In this document: positions 1 through 53,280 of the stretch, in pieces
Layout of the letters: every line of letters starts with the position of its first letter
How positions within the stretch are numbered: the first letter of the stretch is position 1
Assembly: GCA_003142185.1 (NCBI GenBank)
Contig: PLOR01000026.1
Coordinates: 1-64,000 of the forward strand
From: Bryobacterales bacterium
Lineage (GTDB): Bacteria > Acidobacteriota > Terriglobia > Bryobacterales > Bryobacteraceae
Direction of reading: 5' to 3'
DNA length: 64,000 nt
The notes under the pieces: generated by a model
The model's input: the letters and a program-made list of their open reading frames with translations, nothing else
Database searches by the model: none
Told to the model about the DNA's origin: nothing
Made by a program: the position numbers and the translations under genes

Positions 1-411
1 TTGCGCGATGAAACCGGCAACCGACGCTTTTGGCCCGTCCAATGTGGCCGAATCGACCTCGCGGCGCTCCGTCTCGACAAGGACCAACTTTGGGCCGAAT
101 CGGTGGCGCTCTACAGCAGCGGCGCGCCGTGGTGGGTGGATACCGCAGACCTGGCGCACCTCGCGGCCAATGAGCAATCGGCCCGTTACGAATCCGACGC
201 GTGGGATACCGACATTGCTAACTGGATCGACATTCGCGATACAGTCAGCGTCCCTGAAGTGCTGGCCGAATGCCTGAAGAAAGACCGGGCGCAGTGGACG
301 CAAACCGATGCGAACCGCGTAGCGCGTTCCCTTCGCTCGATGGGCTGGGAACGGTACCAACAGCGGGACGGAACTTGCCGGCAATGGCGCTACCGGAGGG
401 TGGGTGAGTGA
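1..411 (+). CDS. VapE-family (virulence-associated E) replication protein, C-terminal part
   Basis: This is the last 136 residues of a larger protein whose start lies left of the window; the TTG at base 1 is just where the window begins. The segment RDETGNRRFWPV, then DKDQLWAES and PWWVDTADL, then WTQTDANRVARSLRSMGW, matches the C-terminal part of VapE/VirE-type P-loop proteins. These are primase-helicase-like ATPases found in prophages, phage satellites and genomic islands. The ATPase core itself is not in view. The stop is followed directly by a GTCAC repeat cluster and small phage-like genes on the same strand, which fits a replication module. Specific activity is inferred from the family only. 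Confidence 0.75.
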   Translation: MRDETGNRRFWPVQCGRIDLAALRLDKDQLWAESVALYSSGAPWWVDTADLAHLAANEQSARYESDAWDTDIANWIDIRDTVSVPEVLAECLKKDRAQWTQTDANRVARSLRSMGWERYQQRDGTCRQWRYRRVGE

Positions 412-413
412 AT

Positions 414-575
414 GTCACCAGCAGTCACTAGTTATGTCACCCGTTCAGTCACCAGAGCAAGTGCTTTCTTATGTTGCATGTCACTACTGTCACCAGTATG
501 TGTGTGTAGCGCGTATATGTGTAAACACAGTTATAGGAGTTACGAAAATGGGGGGTGACTCAGGTGACAGGTGAC
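414..575. repeat. Iteron-like GTCAC/GTGAC repeat cluster
   Basis: Six copies of GTCAC (mostly GTCACC or GTCACT) start at 414, 424, 436, 448, 480 and 489. Three copies of the complement GTGAC start at 555, 564 and 571, after an A+T-richer stretch (about 500-548). The first group lies directly after the stop of the VapE-like gene. Clustered short repeats beside a replication gene, arranged in two opposed groups around an A+T-rich core, resemble an origin or a protein-binding array. The role is inferred. Confidence 0.55.
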
Positions 576-775
576 ACCAGGAACCGGGAACAACGAGGAA
601 CACGGGCGCGCGGCGCTACCTCCGCCGCGTGCCTGGACGTGATTTTTCAGGTCGCGCCGAAAATGTGGATGAGCGACGCTGATCGAGTCAACCTGCTGTG
701 GGCGACACCGTCGACCCGCAAGCCACGCTCTGTTCTTTTGGTCGCGAGCGCAGCACGCCCGAGAGGCGGCGCCGC

Positions 776-1177
776 ATGAGCGAAACCGCGCGGCACACGA
801 CGGAACGCGCTCGCGCGCGCGAACAGCGCGTAATCGGCTTTCTCTTGGCCGGGCGCAGCTTGCAGCAAATCATCGAAGAGACCCCGATCTCGCGCACCGA
901 ACTATGGCGCCTTCGCAAGCGTAACGACTTTCAAGTGCACTTCACTGAAGCCCGCGCGCAAGCTCTCGACTCCGCGGTAAACGCTTTGCACGACGGCGCC
1001 GTTGTTTTCGTCCAGACGCTGCGGGAGATCTGCCAAGATTCCAGAGCGCGCGGGAGCGAGCGGGCAACCGCGGCGCGATCGGGCCTGGATTCGCTGTTCA
1101 AGGCGACGGAGATGTTCAACGTCGAGGAGCGCTTGCGGAAGCTCGAACAGATCGCGGCCGGGGAGGGCGGAACGTGA
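776..1177 (+). CDS. Phage-like helix-turn-helix small protein
   Basis: 133 residues starting MSETARHTTERARAREQR. I chose the ATG at 776 over an upstream in-frame ATG at 698 because the intervening residues look non-coding and GAGAGGCGG precedes 776. Residues about 15-60 (VIGFLLAGRSLQQIIEET, then ISRTELWRLRKR) look like a helix-turn-helix, as in small terminase-like or phage regulatory proteins. The remainder is helical and ends in ERLRKLEQIAAGEGG. It is followed by a GTGA start-stop overlap with the next gene, so the genes are probably cotranscribed. I do not recognise a specific family; a terminase small subunit is one possibility. Confidence 0.55.
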   Translation: MSETARHTTERARAREQRVIGFLLAGRSLQQIIEETPISRTELWRLRKRNDFQVHFTEARAQALDSAVNALHDGAVVFVQTLREICQDSRARGSERATAARSGLDSLFKATEMFNVEERLRKLEQIAAGEGGT

Positions 1178-1536
1178 GCACCTTGAGCACAGGTACCCCA
1201 AGTTTTCACCACGATTTCGCAGATGGAACAGGCAAAGTGTTGCAAACACGCGGGAATGCTACCAGCGACCGTCTGCCTGCGACACAGAATTGCCCTTCTG
1301 CCGGCGCGATTCTCGCCTGGCTCGAAGCTCACGCAGTGGAGATTTTGGTGCAGGCCATTCCGGCCGGTCGACGGCGAAAGAACCGCGCCATTTTGCAGTA
1401 CCGCGATGTGGACGGCGAAGTGCGCGCCGTGGGCGGCGCCACCATCGCGGCGGCCGTCTGGAAAGCAGCAGTTCGACAACTATCACGACGTGGGATAACC
1501 TGCACGCAGGCCGCCTTGGGCGGTCAAAAGGAGTAA
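1174..1536 (+). CDS. Hypothetical protein of the integrated element
   Basis: 120 residues beginning with GTG inside the stop of the preceding gene (GTGA overlap), which suggests translational coupling. The sequence MSTLSTGTPSFHHDF has no signal peptide. The middle (AILAWLEAHAVEILVQAIPA) is probably helical and is followed by a basic patch GRRRKNRAI. No family recognised. It sits in a same-strand run of small genes between the VapE-like gene and the terminator at 3290, so it is probably an accessory gene of the mobile element. Confidence 0.45.
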   Translation: MSTLSTGTPSFHHDFADGTGKVLQTRGNATSDRLPATQNCPSAGAILAWLEAHAVEILVQAIPAGRRRKNRAILQYRDVDGEVRAVGGATIAAAVWKAAVRQLSRRGITCTQAALGGQKE

Positions 1537-1539
1537 ACA

Positions 1540-1737
1540 ATGAAACGGTTGGAACGGTTGCGGGCGCTGGTCGACGCGCCCGGCGGGCTCGAGGCGCTCG
1601 ATCAGATCATCGTCGGTCTCCGCGGTGACACTTCGGAGCTTCGCAGCCACGCTGCTACCACGGCTTCGCCAGAGCTGCGTCGCGTGGCGCTGGCGTATGT
1701 GGACGAACTGAGAGCGGCGGCCAAGGGAGGCCGATGA
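1540..1737 (+). CDS. Small hypothetical protein of the integrated element
   Basis: 65 residues, MKRLERLRALVDAPGGLEAL, preceded by an excellent ribosome binding site (AAAAGGAGTAAACA then ATG). The content is almost entirely helical and charged, with no cysteines and no membrane segment. The stop overlaps the next start (ATGA at 1734-1737), so the pair is coupled. Function unknown. Confidence 0.5.
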   Translation: MKRLERLRALVDAPGGLEALDQIIVGLRGDTSELRSHAATTASPELRRVALAYVDELRAAAKGGR

Positions 1738-2021
1738 GAAACATACACGGCCGCCTTGAACTGTTGGAGCGAGTTCTTCGCGAAGAGTCTGTCACACTGC
1801 TGATGGACGATGGCTCGATAGCTATTCTCCACCTACGAACGGCGGGCAGAGACGATGCGCTTTTGGACCTGGCCGTCCGCTGTCTGCACCAAGGCAGCAG
1901 CCCAGTTGATCCAGACGTTGCCCTGGTCAGGCGATCGATCGCCGGCCAGGCGGAAGGGAACTATCTGCTCGACGTTGCCAGGCTCACAGCGTGCGGGCCT
2001 GCGGAAGCATGTCATGAATAA
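1734..2021 (+). CDS. Small hypothetical protein of the integrated element
   Basis: 95 residues, MRNIHGRLELLERVLREESV, starting in an ATGA overlap with the preceding gene. The N-terminus is a short amphipathic helix followed by a strand-like stretch (VTLLMDDGSIAILHL). No known family recognised. It is one of a chain of tightly packed genes typical of phage or satellite modules. Confidence 0.45.
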   Translation: MRNIHGRLELLERVLREESVTLLMDDGSIAILHLRTAGRDDALLDLAVRCLHQGSSPVDPDVALVRRSIAGQAEGNYLLDVARLTACGPAEACHE

Positions 2022-2055
2022 GTCAACTAAGCGAGTAACTCGAAAGGAGAATCAG

Positions 2056-2421
2056 ATGAAAAACGGTTTGAGAACAGCGTTTATTGCGAGCGGCGACGGC
2101 GGGGACTTGTTAGTCAAAGTTTCCGGCGCCTGCCAGCACATCGACGGTTTTAACGAGTTATCGGCGGAGCAGCGGCGGGACTTCGCCGTTCGTGTGATTG
2201 AGCGCAGCGGGATTGTCACAACGCGCCTTCGAACCACTGACCGCGCGCGCATCGGTGACGCTGCGCAGCTCGCCATGGATGCGGAAGCGTGCAATCCTAT
2301 CCTGGCCGGCGGGCGCGCGCCTGGCGCCGGATACGAGCGCGAACGGCGCAGAGAGGCGGAGCGTTGCGAGCGGCTACAAGCGGCGTACGATGACGCGGGA
2401 AAGGGAGAGTCACATGTTTGA
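2056..2421 (+). CDS. Hypothetical protein of the integrated element
   Basis: 121 residues. I start it at the ATG at 2056, which follows AAAGGAGAATCAG, a strong ribosome binding site. An in-frame upstream extension to 1855 would overlap the preceding gene. It begins MKNGLRTAFIASGDGGDLL and ends in a charged helix (YERERRREAERCERLQAAYD). No domain recognised. Its last bases overlap the start of the next gene (2414). Confidence 0.5.
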   Translation: MKNGLRTAFIASGDGGDLLVKVSGACQHIDGFNELSAEQRRDFAVRVIERSGIVTTRLRTTDRARIGDAAQLAMDAEACNPILAGGRAPGAGYERERRREAERCERLQAAYDDAGKGESHV

Positions 2422-3196
2422 AGGTTCTAGCTGGCTAAGATCGAAAATGAGCTTTGCATCCGAACTGGTCCCCGCCTTCCCGGTACCGCCGATGGCGCCT
2501 ATCGCGGCGCCGGATGCCGATCCGACGGCGGCGCCAACCGGCGACTGGATGCCGCCGGCCACGGTGGACCCGACGGCCGCGCACGTGCCGCCGATCATCA
2601 CCAGCGCCGACGCGGGCGCCGCATTCGATGCCATTTTCTCAGAACTCGTCAGAGCGGGCGCCGATGACGCTGGCCTCTTAGTCAATTCCGACTTACTCCG
2701 TGAGTGCGATAGCTTGCGCGATCGTGTCTTGTCTCGACTCACTGAGCAGCGGACGGCGAAACAGGCTGGCTTGGGCGCCGAGCGAGATGCGGCGTACGCG
2801 ACCTGCCGGGCTCTGCTCGATTCAATCGAGGAGGCGGCGAAGGAGTACGGCCGGCTCAATTCAATCGCGGCCAGTTACGCGACAGGTCCGCTTAACACCG
2901 CAGCGGCGAAGGTGACTGCCATCTCACAGCAGGCGCCCGTGCGATCGTCTTATCCCTCCAGGCAGGAAATCGAGTCTTGGCGGAATCGATTGTTCGCTGC
3001 CGAGCATGAGCTCGCGGGCAAGCAGGCAGAGCACAATGAGCTGCGTGCTTCGGTCAACGTCGTTCTCGAAGAGTGGCAGCGGCTCAAACGCGAGCTCGCC
3101 GCGGCGCAGCAAATCGAAGAGCGGCTGACGTGTGAGATTGAACGGCGGCCGTACCACGATCCGAAGACCGGCTTTTACGTCGCGCCGACGATCTGA
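2414..3196 (+). CDS. Proline/alanine-rich N-terminus plus coiled-coil protein of the integrated element
   Basis: 260 residues from ATG 2414 (GGGAGAGTCAC upstream); the reading frame is open further upstream but that part runs across the preceding gene. Residues about 15-65 are rich in proline, alanine and aspartate (PAFPVPPMAPIAAPDADPT). Residues about 70-240 are helical with heptad-like spacing, including EHELAGKQAEHNELRASVNV. The C-terminus PYHDPKTGFYVAPTI is more compact. The architecture suggests a structural or scaffold-like phage protein, but no family is recognised. It is the last gene before the terminator at 3290. Confidence 0.5.
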   Translation: MFEGSSWLRSKMSFASELVPAFPVPPMAPIAAPDADPTAAPTGDWMPPATVDPTAAHVPPIITSADAGAAFDAIFSELVRAGADDAGLLVNSDLLRECDSLRDRVLSRLTEQRTAKQAGLGAERDAAYATCRALLDSIEEAAKEYGRLNSIAASYATGPLNTAAAKVTAISQQAPVRSSYPSRQEIESWRNRLFAAEHELAGKQAEHNELRASVNVVLEEWQRLKRELAAAQQIEERLTCEIERRPYHDPKTGFYVAPTI

Positions 3197-3489: not shown

Positions 3490-3738
3490 CTAGCAATCAG
3501 CCCGATAGAGGTCCTTTAGAGCTTCAAAGGCGTCCTCGTGGCTGTCGAAGGAACCCGCGCGGCGAGGATGCCCGAGGGTTCGGTACTCCCACTTGTGGCT
3601 GACGTTGTTCAATATGATATCGGCCAGATGTGTGTGGTAAACACTCATGACCTGGTACCCGGTGGGCGACCCGTCCGGCAGCGCGGAAATGTCAAACAAG
3701 GGCTCTAGTGTGAGCCCATCAACCTCAAGCTCGGTCAC
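3490..3738 (-). CDS. Small hypothetical protein near the element end
   Basis: 82 residues from a GTG at 3738, reading MTELEVDGLTLEPLFDI. The composition is acidic, with a possible alpha/beta fold (YQVMSVYHTHLADIILNN). No family recognised. It is convergent with the forward gene run and lies between the terminator and the tRNA fragment, a position often held by cargo or integrase-linked genes in integrative elements. The weak ribosome binding site and non-ATG start lower confidence. Confidence 0.4.
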   Translation of the reverse strand: MTELEVDGLTLEPLFDISALPDGSPTGYQVMSVYHTHLADIILNNVSHKWEYRTLGHPRRAGSFDSHEDAFEALKDLYRADC

Positions 3739-3848
3739 AGTGCCGCCCCCGCCTTCGCGGCGCGTAGACTTGGTTTCGAGTTTTCGATCATGCGGAGATT
3801 ATACAGTGGCACAGCCACTATGGTGAAAACTTGGGGTACCCTGCGCAG

Positions 3849-3945
3849 AAAACGGTAGAAATCGGGAGTAGTGCCGTGGCTCTCCAGAGGCCCGTAAACA
3901 GCGGTTTCCGAGGGGCTTACAGTCAACCGTAGTAAACGGTAGAAA
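3849..3945 (+). repeat. Direct repeat AAACGGTAGAAA next to the attachment site
   Basis: The 12-mer AAACGGTAGAAA occurs at 3850-3861 and again at 3934-3945, 84 bases apart in the same orientation. The second copy ends about 15 bases before the tRNA fragment. A short palindrome, ACCGT then ACGGT, overlaps the second copy (about 3926-3940). Spaced direct repeats next to a tRNA att site resemble arm-type integrase or excisionase binding sites; this role is inferred. Confidence 0.45.
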
Positions 3946-3959
3946 CCCCTCGGTTGCGC

Positions 3960-4004
3960 TTTGTAATCAGAGGGTCGGGGGTTCAAGCCCCTCCGCCAGC
4001 TCCA
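3960..4004 (+). pseudogene. 3' fragment of tRNA-Thr(UGU): attachment site of the integrated element
   Basis: Reading 3960-4004 gives an anticodon loop TTTGTAA (anticodon TGT), the 3' side of the anticodon stem, a T-arm with the loop TTCAAGC, the acceptor 3' strand CGCCAGC and an encoded CCA ending at 4004. The bases upstream (GGTTGCGC) do not pair with the anticodon stem and no D-arm or 5' acceptor strand is present, so this is only the 3' half. A tRNA 3' segment duplicated at the edge of a phage-like gene block is the classic product of integration into a tRNA gene. Confidence 0.7.
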
Positions 4005-4090
4005 TTCAAATCCTCCGCGGCAGAAACAACTAATAGCGGTTGTCCCGCGCCCCTCGGAATCCGTCAAGATCGAATGTTTGTTGGCCGAAG

Positions 4091-4381
4091 CTATTTTACT
4101 TCGATCTTGAGCACGGCGTCTGAATGCTCGTGACGCCAGTTCCAGTAATTCTGCTGATCGTCGTCTTTGAGCTTGGAAAAATCGCTGTATTTGCGATGGT
4201 TCTGTTTTGCATAGATACGATACGCCTTGCCTTCTTGACCATTCCATTGATGATCGTCGTTGTGTTGTTTGTCGTGATAGGTGACAGCGGCCTTATCATC
4301 GGCTCGCAGCACTCTTGGCGCCATTGCCACCGGGATCATAAGGGCGGCACTCAGCAGGGCAGTATTCCAGAAACGGGACAT
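4091..4381 (-). CDS. Small exported protein of acidobacterial type
   Basis: 96 residues from ATG 4381, preceded by AGGAGAATAAAAC. An N-terminal signal peptide (MSRFWNTALLSAALMIPVAM, cleavage near VLRA-DD) is followed by a mature part of about 68 residues rich in H, D, W, Y and K: DKQHNDDHQWNGQEGKAYR, then a conserved-looking WNWRHEH end. Short secreted proteins with HQWN and YWNWRHEH motifs recur in Acidobacteriota, as far as I recall, without a known function. It is the first gene outside the element, just past the attachment site. A histidine-rich secreted protein could bind metal, but this is speculation. Confidence 0.65.
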   Translation of the reverse strand: MSRFWNTALLSAALMIPVAMAPRVLRADDKAAVTYHDKQHNDDHQWNGQEGKAYRIYAKQNHRKYSDFSKLKDDDQQNYWNWRHEHSDAVLKIEVK

Positions 4382-5019
4382 AGTTGTTTTATTCTCCTGT
4401 TCGTCGAACGAGCAATTGTCGGGCCAAGCATTCCCTGACGGCGGTGGTGAATGCAACGAATAGAATACAAAGACGATCATAACCGCTGAATGGTCCGTTC
4501 CGCACCCGAAATCAAGTGCATCACATGCATCAGACGACGTCATATGACGGGTGAAATGCAGATCCTGCCATCCCAGAGACCCGGGATATCCAGCATGGCC
4601 CAAAGTTCCGGACGCTAAACCGTCTACCGATGCGGAACGCCGCCGGGCATTTGGTGATCAGCCCATGACCTACATGGACATGGTACATGCAAGTCTTGCC
4701 AATGAACAGGCAGGAACTGCGCACAACTGCTTTCCACGTGGCCGATATAAACCGAACGGCGCGGGAAACACGCGGGGGGCGCCAGCGTGATGTGGTTTGG
4801 TGTGTGACCTGCAACTAGCCTGGTACTGGGTATGAGAATCCTGTGCGATCTGCGCGTGCTCCGGCTGGGCTTGGCCTCTGTGACTGCCCTTCCAGGCCAA
4901 GTAGCTGCGCGCGAGATTATTCGCAATGCCGTTGTAGCCGACGCCCGGACGGTCTGCCCGGCAGAAGGCCGAGACGCCCTCAACGCCAGGCTCAACCGAT
5001 TCGCGAAGGCGATCATCCA
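4382..5019. other. Long intergenic region, no gene recognised
   Basis: About 640 bases between the small exported protein and the penicillin-binding protein. Short open frames exist on both strands (for example 4551-4790 and 4832-5023, the latter ending in an ATGA overlap with the downstream gene) but their composition and start context do not support real genes. I see no RNA gene or clear promoter. Confidence 0.4.
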
Positions 5020-7281
5020 ATGAGCATAGCGAGACCACCCCCGCTCGGGGCCCCGCCGAGGTCTGTTCGAACCTGGTTTAAACGTCTGCGAGTGCGCGCC
5101 CGGGCAACCATCCGGAGACTGCGCAGGACCCGCCTGGGAAGACTTGATTGGACTAAGGGGCTTGTCCGCTTCCTTATTGGCACAACGGCTGTTACTGCCG
5201 TTCTCGCGACTGCCGTTTTCTATCACGTCTACTTTGACAGAAACAATCTGCCCGATCTGGAAGGATTCACCCGGTTTGAGTTTCCTACGATCGGTGGCAT
5301 TTACGATGCCAACGGCCACCTCCTCAAGGAGATGGCCTCAGAATCCCGCCAGATCACCCGATATGAGGAAATCCCCGCGATTGTTCGCGATGCGATCCTC
5401 GCCGCAGAAGACAAGAACTTCTTCTCGCATTCCGGAGTCGACTACTCCGGATTTGCTCGCGTACTGTGCAAAGTCAAATTCGGTCACCTAATCGGTCGTC
5501 TTCGAAAGATGGGAAGTCGCGACGCGGCTAACAATTCCGCGATCTTCCCGCAAGGCGGATCGACCATCACCCAACAGCTCGTGCGCGGCTATTTTCTCAA
5601 GACCATGACGGCTCAAGAGAACAGCGACCAGCTAAGGCACGGTGAATACCTGGCTCGCCTGTTGTCGGGCGTGATCGGTGCGCGCATGGTCAACATGCTG
5701 GTTCGAAAGGTGGAGGAGATCCGCCTTTCGTTGTGGGTCGAAGAAGAGATGCAAAAACGCTTCGGTTCCAAGCGCCGAGCGAAGGAAGAGATTCTGGCCC
5801 GGTACGCCAGCCTGATTTACATGGGAAACGGTCAATACGGGTTTGCAAAGGGGGCGGAGTATTACTTTGGCCGGCCTCTCGGCACGTTCACCCTGGAAGA
5901 TGCGGACAAGGCCGCGCTGCTGGCAGGCGTTGCAAAGTCGGCGCGCTACTATGCACCCAGCGCCAGCGAAACCGAGAGAGTTTTGCAGCGCCGAAACCAA
6001 ACCTTGGCGCTGATGGCCGCAAGGGGCTTTATTTCTCGCGACCAGGCGCGAAGAGCCGAACAGCGCCCGATTGCGGTGGTGGCGCAGCACAAGGACAAAA
6101 CCATCGAGGCGTCCGCGGTCGTCGACAATATCCTTGACGAACTCACCAGCCGCCAATCCGAACTCAGCGTGAAGGACCTGCGGGAGGGGCGAATCCAGGT
6201 CTACTCGACGGTGGACGCCGGAGTGCAGCAAATTGCGAACCAGGCACTGGAGCGCGGCCTTTTGCTATACGAGAACCGCCATCCCGGCGCCCGTGGCGTG
6301 ATCCAGGGCGCGGTGGTGGTACTGAGGAATCGCGATGCGGGCACTCTCGCCGAGACGGGCGGCCGCCAATTCTATAAAGACCACTCCAGCGCATATAGTG
6401 ACCTGAACCGCGTCACGAAGTCCCTGCGCCAGCCCGGGTCCGCCATGAAACCCATTGTCTATCTTGCCGCTTTTCAGGAAGGAACATTCAATCTCGATAC
6501 CGTGGTGCCCGACGAACCCATCAGCGTCCCCAATGGCCGGGATCGGGATGTGAAGTGGATCTCAAACTTCGACGGTCAATTCGAGGGCATGATCCCCCTC
6601 CGGTTGGCGCTGGCGGAATCCAGAAACGCCGTGGCAATCTGGATTACAGGACAGATCGGAATTGGCAGCGTCCTCGGGACGGCGCGCAGTCTTGGCATAC
6701 AGACGCCCCTGCGCCCATATGTCACGACGGCCTTGGGGGCATCCGAAGTGACTTTGCTGGAACTGGCCAATGCGTACCGCACGATCGCGTCCGGCATTTT
6801 GACGCAGCCGTATGTAATCCGCAAGATCGTACGCAATTCGGACGAGGTAATAGCGGATAGCGGACACCAGTCCTCTCCGATCGCTGTCGATAGTGACGCA
6901 CTCTCGCTGATTCAAGAGGGTCTGCGCAGTGTGGTGCGGATACCGACCGGTACGGCTCATGCGCTGGATTCCCCCGGGTTTCCCATCGCTGTGATGGGAA
7001 AAACAGGAACCACAAACCAGTTCAGGGACGCACTTTTCGTGGGGTCCACTTACGGCCCCCAAGGAATCACCGTCGCTGTACGAATAGGCTTTGACGACAA
7101 CCGTTCGCTCGGGTCCGATGAGACGGGCGCCAGGGCTGCACTTCCGGTGTTCAAAGAAGTAATGCTCAAGGTATACGGCGAGAAGCTGGTGGGGCCTGTG
7201 CCTCGGTTTCCGTCTGAAATGGAACAGCGTATTGACGTGTTCCTCAAAACTGACGTGATGGAGACGGCCGCGATCGATTAA
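5020..7281 (+). CDS. Class A penicillin-binding protein (glycosyltransferase/transpeptidase)
   Basis: 753 residues from ATG 5020. It polymerises lipid II and cross-links peptidoglycan in the periplasm. A basic cytoplasmic N-terminus is followed by one membrane anchor (about 47-69). The GT51 domain shows EDKNFFSHSGVD with the catalytic Glu at about 130, GGSTITQQ at 179-186 and a third motif near 254-284 (KEEILARYASLIYMG). The transpeptidase domain has SAMK (Ser474, Lys477), SRN (534-536) and KTGTT (661-665), so both active sites look intact. The GT51 domain has an insertion between GGSTITQQ and the third motif (about 195-250). An in-frame upstream extension exists, but no conserved sequence lies there. 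A PBP1A/PBP1C-like assignment cannot be narrowed further. Confidence 0.9.
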   Translation: MSIARPPPLGAPPRSVRTWFKRLRVRARATIRRLRRTRLGRLDWTKGLVRFLIGTTAVTAVLATAVFYHVYFDRNNLPDLEGFTRFEFPTIGGIYDANGHLLKEMASESRQITRYEEIPAIVRDAILAAEDKNFFSHSGVDYSGFARVLCKVKFGHLIGRLRKMGSRDAANNSAIFPQGGSTITQQLVRGYFLKTMTAQENSDQLRHGEYLARLLSGVIGARMVNMLVRKVEEIRLSLWVEEEMQKRFGSKRRAKEEILARYASLIYMGNGQYGFAKGAEYYFGRPLGTFTLEDADKAALLAGVAKSARYYAPSASETERVLQRRNQTLALMAARGFISRDQARRAEQRPIAVVAQHKDKTIEASAVVDNILDELTSRQSELSVKDLREGRIQVYSTVDAGVQQIANQALERGLLLYENRHPGARGVIQGAVVVLRNRDAGTLAETGGRQFYKDHSSAYSDLNRVTKSLRQPGSAMKPIVYLAAFQEGTFNLDTVVPDEPISVPNGRDRDVKWISNFDGQFEGMIPLRLALAESRNAVAIWITGQIGIGSVLGTARSLGIQTPLRPYVTTALGASEVTLLELANAYRTIASGILTQPYVIRKIVRNSDEVIADSGHQSSPIAVDSDALSLIQEGLRSVVRIPTGTAHALDSPGFPIAVMGKTGTTNQFRDALFVGSTYGPQGITVAVRIGFDDNRSLGSDETGARAALPVFKEVMLKVYGEKLVGPVPRFPSEMEQRIDVFLKTDVMETAAID

Positions 7282-52677: not shown

Positions 52678-53280
52678 TCAGAGGTTGGCGTTTGGCTCCA
52701 GGCTGCGCCAGAGATACCAGCTTGCCACCGTGCAGAAGGGGCGCCACCGCTCGGCCATCGCCTCGATTTCGCCGGGCAGCGGCATCGCCTCAAGACCGTA
52801 TGCCTTTCGGATGGCGTTGCGAATTCCCAAATCGCCGGTGGGCAACACATCGTGCCGGCGCAGGGCAAAAATCAGAAACATGTGCGCCGTCCAGACGCCG
52901 ATCCCCTTGACGGCCGTCAACCGCGCCATTACTTCCTCGTCCGTCAGCTCCGGCAATTCTTCAAAGCGGACCCGCCCATCGCGCGTATGCCGCGCCAGAT
53001 CCCGTATGTACTCTGTCTTCTGACCCGATAGCCCCACCGCCCGCATCCGCGCCGGGCGCAGCTTGAGGATGTTCGCCGGCGTGATCTTGCCCCCCGCGGC
53101 GCTAGCCAGGCGGCCAAAAATCACGTTTGCCACCCGCCCGCTCAACTGCTGGTAAACGATGGATTTAACCAGCGTCTCAAAATCCGGGTCGCGGAATTCG
53201 ATACGATAGTCTCCAACCCGGTCGATAATGCCGGCCAGCACCGGGTCTGACCTTCGGAGGTGGTGAATGGCTTTCTGCAT
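52678..53280 (-). CDS. DNA-3-methyladenine glycosylase II-like protein (HhH-GPD)
   Basis: 200 residues from ATG 53280. It excises alkylated bases. The HhH-GPD pattern is clear: LVKSIVYQQLSGRVANVIFGRL, then LTAVKGIGVWTAHMFLIFALRRHDVLPTGDLGI with the helix-hairpin-helix and the catalytic Asp in GD. It is the short AlkA/MagI-like form without an N-terminal TBP-like domain. Its start lies close to the divergent VWFA gene. Confidence 0.9.
   Translation of the reverse strand: MQKAIHHLRRSDPVLAGIIDRVGDYRIEFRDPDFETLVKSIVYQQLSGRVANVIFGRLASAAGGKITPANILKLRPARMRAVGLSGQKTEYIRDLARHTRDGRVRFEELPELTDEEVMARLTAVKGIGVWTAHMFLIFALRRHDVLPTGDLGIRNAIRKAYGLEAMPLPGEIEAMAERWRPFCTVASWYLWRSLEPNANL

Follow-up and report, generated by a model that had tools for sequence, protein, structure and literature searches.

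A tRNA-Thr(UGU) fragment as the probable attachment remnant of a small integrated element in a Bryobacterales genome

Why the 3′ half of a tRNA gene should stand alone beside phage-like genes is the question raised by the left end of a 64,000-nucleotide stretch of Bryobacterales DNA (the window; G000:C47:1-64000), which opens with the first base of contig C47, one of the 119 contigs of its genome. Insertion into a tRNA gene with replacement of its 3′ tail is a well-known route of element integration. Positions 3960-4004 cover a tRNA-Thr(UGU) gene from nucleotide 32, where the anticodon loop starts, to nucleotide 76, the last of the CCA; the 5′ part is missing and the sequence left of 3960 is unrelated (Table 1). 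A 3′ half by itself should escape tRNA prediction, and ARAGORN indeed calls no gene in the window. The congener G001, the only one in the sets searched, carries a tRNA-Thr(TGT) whose last 45 nucleotides equal the fragment without mismatch, and the initial annotation of this segment as the end of a tRNA-Thr lacking its 5′ half is borne out with its coordinates unchanged. A 24-nucleotide piece of the fragment, with up to 2 mismatches allowed, occurs at only two places in the genome, the fragment and one intact gene. Nothing was found to favour a coincidental resemblance or some other, unrelated tRNA-like sequence, and the probability of either is negligible: the 45/45 identity with the congener gene, together with 0 hits in the same genome for the reversed pattern used as a control, excludes chance.

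Searched with the fragment, the same genome gave a single further match, on the 24,388-bp contig C93, where a tyrosine integrase gene points at a complete tRNA-Thr(TGT) and stops 14 bp beyond its CCA. This is the only tRNA-Thr(UGU) detected in the genome (42 Rfam tRNA matches, 37 of them typed by ARAGORN; the five untyped matches are 84-87 bases long), and the genome-wide tRNA search showed C47 without a tRNA and C93 without a second one. Invariant columns in an alignment of five integrases include R196, K221, H344, R347 and Y382 of the C93 protein, which we take to be its catalytic residues. Behind the integrase lie an open reading frame (ORF) that PHROGs link weakly to HNH-type proteins (2.5e-5), an oppositely read primase-like protein (P0002; PHROG primase, 9.5e-10) and then the contig end. 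As a separate feature, residues ~307-341 of the integrase, directly ahead of the HDLRH motif, make up an insertion of about 35 residues that includes four cysteines (CPEC...CAGC) and that four aligned relatives lack. The initial annotation had expected a full tRNA-Thr(TGT), its last 45 nucleotides identical to the fragment, and probably an integrase to the left of the window. Both exist, but on another contig and with 43 of the 45 nucleotides identical; since C47 itself begins with the window, nothing can be read further left, and the link between C93 and C47 is drawn from attachment repeats and gene content.

Comparison with the congener makes the lone tRNA piece readable. The C93 gene is identical to the congener gene at 74 of 76 positions, with G to T differences on C93 at positions 50 and 59. 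The sequences are best explained if the fragment is the original 3′ part, displaced, and the C93 gene of today a chimera completed by the element, since the fragment carries the congener allele and both C93 differences lie in the 3′ half. Identity between fragment and intact gene opens at the first anticodon-loop base (TTTGTAA) and runs to the CCA, with 18 identical nucleotides followed by mismatches at 3978 and 3987; the strand exchange is therefore narrowed to the 18 nucleotides before the first mismatch. The T at 4005 is common to C93 and absent in the congener, and upstream of the intact C93 tRNA homology to the congener extends over ~65 bp. For the sequences without modifications, the minimum free energy is predicted at -33.2 kcal/mol for the congener versus -27.9 kcal/mol for the C93 gene, whose T stem has a U50-U64 mismatch. 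T50 also occurs in 4 of 29 relatives' printed genes (L062, L070, L079 and L081), three of which share the mismatch while L079 has A64, and given this recurrence we claim no defect for the chimeric tRNA.

Occurrence of the fragment in genomes that lack the block would speak against integration, a point raised by the initial annotation. A 40-nucleotide core of the 3′ half, with G or T allowed at the two variable sites, was present in 14 of 257 genomes of the order and twice only in the window genome. The G50/G59 allele occurs in nine other genomes and G50/T59 in four; T50/T59 is found only on C93. In ten of the 13 other core-bearing genomes the core belongs to an entire tRNA-Thr(TGT), as its 3′ half. 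ARAGORN detects no tRNA-Thr in the remaining three: G035 and G289 have lone 3′ halves that share the junction and are therefore displaced fragments too, and G073 has a tRNA with an internal duplication. This last copy (L123; G073:C568, ~4628) repeats the region from D-loop to anticodon and may be a misassembly or a double insertion.

The block left of the fragment, described initially as phage-like, is genuine but modest, with the C-terminus of a VapE-type protein and a helix-turn-helix protein. The helix-turn-helix protein matches terminase small subunits (phrog_2538/1482) at E ~0.015, and its best PHROG match is of unknown function (E 0.00074). Five other left-side ORFs compared with PHROGs, four of them also with Pfam, gave no PHROG match and no above-cut-off Pfam match; the ORF ending at 3196, with PF08614 below cut-off (E 0.0017), is probably coiled-coil. 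Direct and inverted repeats beside the junction are candidate arm sites of the integrase. To the right lies a penicillin-binding protein 1 (PBP1) family gene with homologues 86% identical in G001 and 74% identical in G002; best-segment identities of 85% to Bryobacterales MAGs and 80% to 'Candidatus Solibacter' MAGs allow placement at order level only. GC content is 0.62 on both sides of the edge, so base composition does not mark the element.

Table 1. Features beside the tRNA-Thr(UGU) fragment and on contig C93 (positions without a contig name are those of the window)
Feature	Position	Strand	Evidence
VapE-type primase/helicase, C-terminal part, cut at contig base 1	1-411	+	PF05272 E 6.5e-15; PHROG DNA helicase 3.6e-23
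Helix-turn-helix protein, weakly terminase-small-subunit-like	698-1177	+	PF20901 E 0.0047, below cut-off
Four ORFs (1174-1536, 1540-1737, 1734-2021 and one with its end at 3196) that lack an informative family match	1174-3196	+	no PHROG match
Small ORF by the element's right end, unknown	3490-3738	-	no PHROG match
Two 18-nt direct repeats beside the junction, 89% alike	3844-3861, 3928-3945	+	repeat search
Inverted repeat overlapping the direct repeats	3908-3918/3943-3953		repeat search
Putative displaced native 3′ part of tRNA-Thr(UGU), attachment-site remnant at the element's right edge	3960-4004	+	congener 45/45; own intact gene 43/45
Predicted interval of strand exchange (gene positions 32-49)	3960-3977	+	identity start to first mismatch
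Hypothetical ORF right of the element	4091-4603	-	no Pfam match
Penicillin-binding protein 1 family gene in the chromosome right of the element	4843-7281	+	PF00912/PF00905
Tyrosine integrase, 423 codons	C93:1974-3245 (L003:1974-3245)	converges on tRNA	Pfam integrase 4.9e-13; PHROG integrase 5.9e-41
Complete tRNA-Thr(TGT)	C93:3260-3335	-	congener gene 74/76

Both putative ends of the element stop at contig ends, and a second element offers a reason. A VapE search of the genome (E up to 0.001) found two C-terminal pieces only, at base 1 of C47 and base 1 of C68 and at the same profile position. C68:1-600 matches window positions 1-616 at 85% DNA identity, C91:1-811 matches C93:1-810 at 98%, and each matching pair is broken at the same base. 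Two elements thus share a replication module, and its middle, the most similar part, was likely collapsed and lost from the assembly. In a comparison across the four possible end pairs, C93 and C47 shared 18 and 18 exact nucleotides within a 46-nucleotide repeat, and C91 and C68 shared a 15-nucleotide direct repeat; the wrong pairings gave 11 nucleotides (C93-C68) and nothing of at least 10 nucleotides (C91-C47), and 20 simple shuffles of the C91/C68 ends matched at most 10. This sequence comparison favours an element A made of C93 and C47 and an element B made of C91 and C68. Aligned to the VapE protein of G123, codon 1 of the window corresponds to about residue 322, which implies a C93-C47 gap of ~0.8 kb and thus a length of ~8.1 kb for element A (7.3 kb seen and ~0.8 kb estimated). 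An 11-nucleotide motif at both element ends, TTGGGGTACCC, was discarded as proof of arm sites because a wrong end pair has a match of equal length; the repeat AACGGTAGAAA, found on the C47 side only, was likewise rejected as proof, and both are kept as candidates. Element B (L056:1-961 and L051:1-8053, on C91 and C68) would measure ~9.8 kb; besides a tyrosine integrase of its own it encodes a terminase large subunit and a protein resembling serine recombinases (PHROG integrase/invertase), and one copy of its 15-nucleotide end repeat overlaps the start of a gene and the other lies upstream of a second, which we take to be yqeY-like and serA-like, respectively.

We consider it very probable that positions 3960-4004 are the right attachment remnant of a small element integrated in the only detected tRNA-Thr(UGU) gene. 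The original proposal of integration into a tRNA gene is thus supported, by the intact tRNA and tyrosine integrase on C93 and by the native allele of the fragment. C93:1-3304 and C47:1-3959 would be the two ends of one ~8.1-kb element, whose integrase would exchange strands between the anticodon loop and the variable loop (3960-3977), joining the tRNA-like core of attP to the chromosomal gene; the element's 3′ half would complete the gene, and the original 3′ half would be pushed to the far end. After excision the element would most likely replicate by its primase and VapE and move, satellite-like, by a helper phage or another vehicle, the least certain step of this scheme.

The fragment might instead be an old or decayed end unrelated to the C93 element, with the C93 tRNA restored by a different, later integration. 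Few phage genes stand in the left block, and C93 and C47 have no physical link, with no direct overlap found between their ends and no read or contig joining them. Moreover, tRNA-Thr(UGU) is a recurrent target: G035, G036 and G289 each have a 3′ half standing alone with an identical starting base, and G035 has apparently taken two successive insertions in one tRNA-Thr. We nonetheless judge an old end improbable. C93 is linked to C47 by the comparison of end pairs and by the shared replication module in which both break off, the other right end, C68, carries a separate integrase and pairs with C91 through a separate repeat, and one element explains everything. Still less probable is an assembly chimera or contaminating contig, which a genome of 119 contigs with 2.25% estimated contamination might permit; against it, the fragment is exactly the congener allele, the ~65 bp upstream of the C93 tRNA are homologous to the congener and GC content is uniform.

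Neighbouring genes gave no support when flank synteny was considered as proof of an empty site. Searches of 30 tRNA-Thr loci for a YihY-like gene, the ORF at 4091-4603 or PBP1 matched our own locus alone, with YihY, and none of 29 relatives' loci (flanks of at most 1.5 kb, some cut by contig ends). The congener's tRNA-Thr and PBP1 lie on different contigs, and its whole 14.4-kb tRNA-Thr contig holds no YihY or PBP1 homologue. Among the 28 PBP1 loci searched, of 79 named, none matches the tRNA fragment, and ARAGORN finds no tRNA in the 12 of them that it scanned. A YihY-like ORF lies upstream of PBP1 in two of the 28, at 30% and 26% identity, too distant to count. These two loci, L176 and L177, come from MAGs labelled as other phyla, and their PBP1-type genes are 70% and 68% identical to that of the window, suggestive of gene transfer or mislabelled bins.

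Element A would behave as a tDNA island of the classical anticodon-loop type. In the Islander survey (PMC4383910), 2083 of 3919 islands belong to class A, defined by anticodon-loop crossover, and a 3′ fragment is present in 3760. Like those islands, element A combines an intact tDNA (C93:3260-3335), a displaced fragment of the same tDNA (43/45), an adjacent tyrosine integrase and an anticodon-loop crossover. Islands of this definition span 2-200 kb, and element A would measure 7.3 kb seen plus ~0.8 kb estimated; the integrase falls in the interval if C93 and C47 belong together, and the fragment would lie downstream in the same orientation if the reversed C93 precedes C47, a separate contig. 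Unlike them, its ends are on two contigs, which makes the single-replicon Islander search inapplicable, and its repeat has two mismatches. Mycobacteriophage Boilgate offers a parallel for such mismatches: at attB-4 (PMC10865867), a 43-bp core with five mismatches covers a tRNA 3′ half, the exchange is placed between the left end of the core and the first mismatch, and a functional tRNA is rebuilt at attL. Element A resembles it in its mismatched 3′-half core, its exchange logic and its rebuilt tRNA, whereas Boilgate is a phage with integration shown by PCR and element A is small, with inferred ends and two mismatches. The features of tRNA-dependent lysogeny, a core of ~10 bp, an unreconstructed tRNA and an element-borne tRNA, do not describe element A, which has a 46-nucleotide core and a rebuilt gene. 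The mechanism of integration is already well known and the case is tidy but ordinary; its interest lies in an exact mobile-element edge fixed in a little-studied lineage. Among the literature matches listed, titles and abstract openings name no phage satellites or tDNA islands of Bryobacterales or Acidobacteriota, and papers on acidobacterial viruses and prophages exist (PMC11924767, PMC5900883).

At ~8 kb, element A looks small and satellite-like rather than like a full prophage, and it is possibly a phage satellite. Its gene content (integrase, primase, VapE, a weak TerS-like protein and no recognised structural gene) suggests this reading. Among its ten ORFs compared with PHROGs, with ~0.8 kb of the element unseen, the only head-and-packaging matches are two to terminase small subunits (E ~0.015), and no terminase large subunit, portal, capsid or tail gene was recognised. 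Like the phage-inducible chromosomal islands (PICIs; PMC6092414), which sometimes carry a terS homologue, element A has an integrase with a specific attachment site at one end and opposed primase and replication genes (P0002 and the VapE C-terminus); unlike them, it has no recognised stl/alpA-type regulator, although small ORFs may be missed, its TerS is weak and no helper is known. A weak match (E 0.015) links P0005 to phrog_2790, a family labelled 'excisionase and transcriptional regulator'. A prophage shortened by deletion of its structural genes, its module coming from a full phage, would fit the same tRNA history. In G123 a related primase/VapE pair adjoins terminase and portal genes, and the module therefore serves fuller phages as well. 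We nevertheless think this origin rather unlikely for element A: a relative in G140 spans only 5.5 kb between attachment copies, with none of its three tested non-integrase ORFs structural, and none of seven tested ORFs of element B is a portal or capsid gene, though one is a terminase large subunit.

The G140 relative has both ends on one contig (L113:3070-8579), where a 45-nucleotide exact repeat of tRNA-Arg(TCT) stands at 3070 and 8535, 5,465 bp apart. Like element A, it has an integrase (55% identical) convergent on the tRNA, a primase and a 45-nucleotide tRNA repeat that begins at the anticodon loop; it differs in its target, tRNA-Arg(UCU), in its 5.5-kb length and in the AAA ATPase (PF13481) that follows the primase where element A has VapE. 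Homology of P0003 to the zinc-finger-like G140 protein in the same place is not claimed, as the best alignment covers 9 identities in 23 residues (E 0.005). Among the best-scoring 11 relatives' integrase loci, eight have a tRNA gene (ARAGORN) within the ~1.5 kb of flank fetched. No close relatives of the primase and integrase were confirmed in viral contigs, nor of the primase in genome contigs, and a wider primase search matched 19 of 201 genomes, including our own, with all others below 50% identity. The P0001 query found no match in L091 of G035, nor did three integrase queries in the 3-kb locus of G289, so that we claim no kinship for the integrases by the other tRNA-Thr fragments. Tentatively, elements A, B and that of G140 could form an undescribed Bryobacterales group of 5-10 kb, satellite-like and swapping replication modules and integrase targets; the host of element A would then depend on an element-supplied allele, with its U50-U64 mismatch, of its only detected ACA-decoding tRNA, and the same tRNA-Thr(UGU) site would also be hit by other elements of the same bacterial family.

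A different arrangement is seen in G035, of the same family, where a 12.7-kb element (L090:19188-20000 and L091:1-12020; G035:C100:69187-82019) splits tRNA-Thr(UGU). Its common core is only 7 nucleotides (TTTGTAA), so that the tRNA gene is not rebuilt. The element brings a complete tRNA-Thr(UGU) of its own (C100:69409-69482), with no second intact copy among the 39 of 48 Rfam tRNA matches examined, along with a tyrosine integrase and a Prim-Pol/DUF5906 protein. It resembles tRNA-dependent lysogeny, described in PMC10865867 for actinobacteriophages. Directly to its left, C100:53197-69231 (L090:3198-19232) carries a 45-nucleotide repeat, composed of 7 nucleotides and the 5′ half of the tRNA, at 53197 and again at 69187; an integrase gene precedes the latter copy. 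This is apparently a tandem element of the rarer 5′-fragment type.
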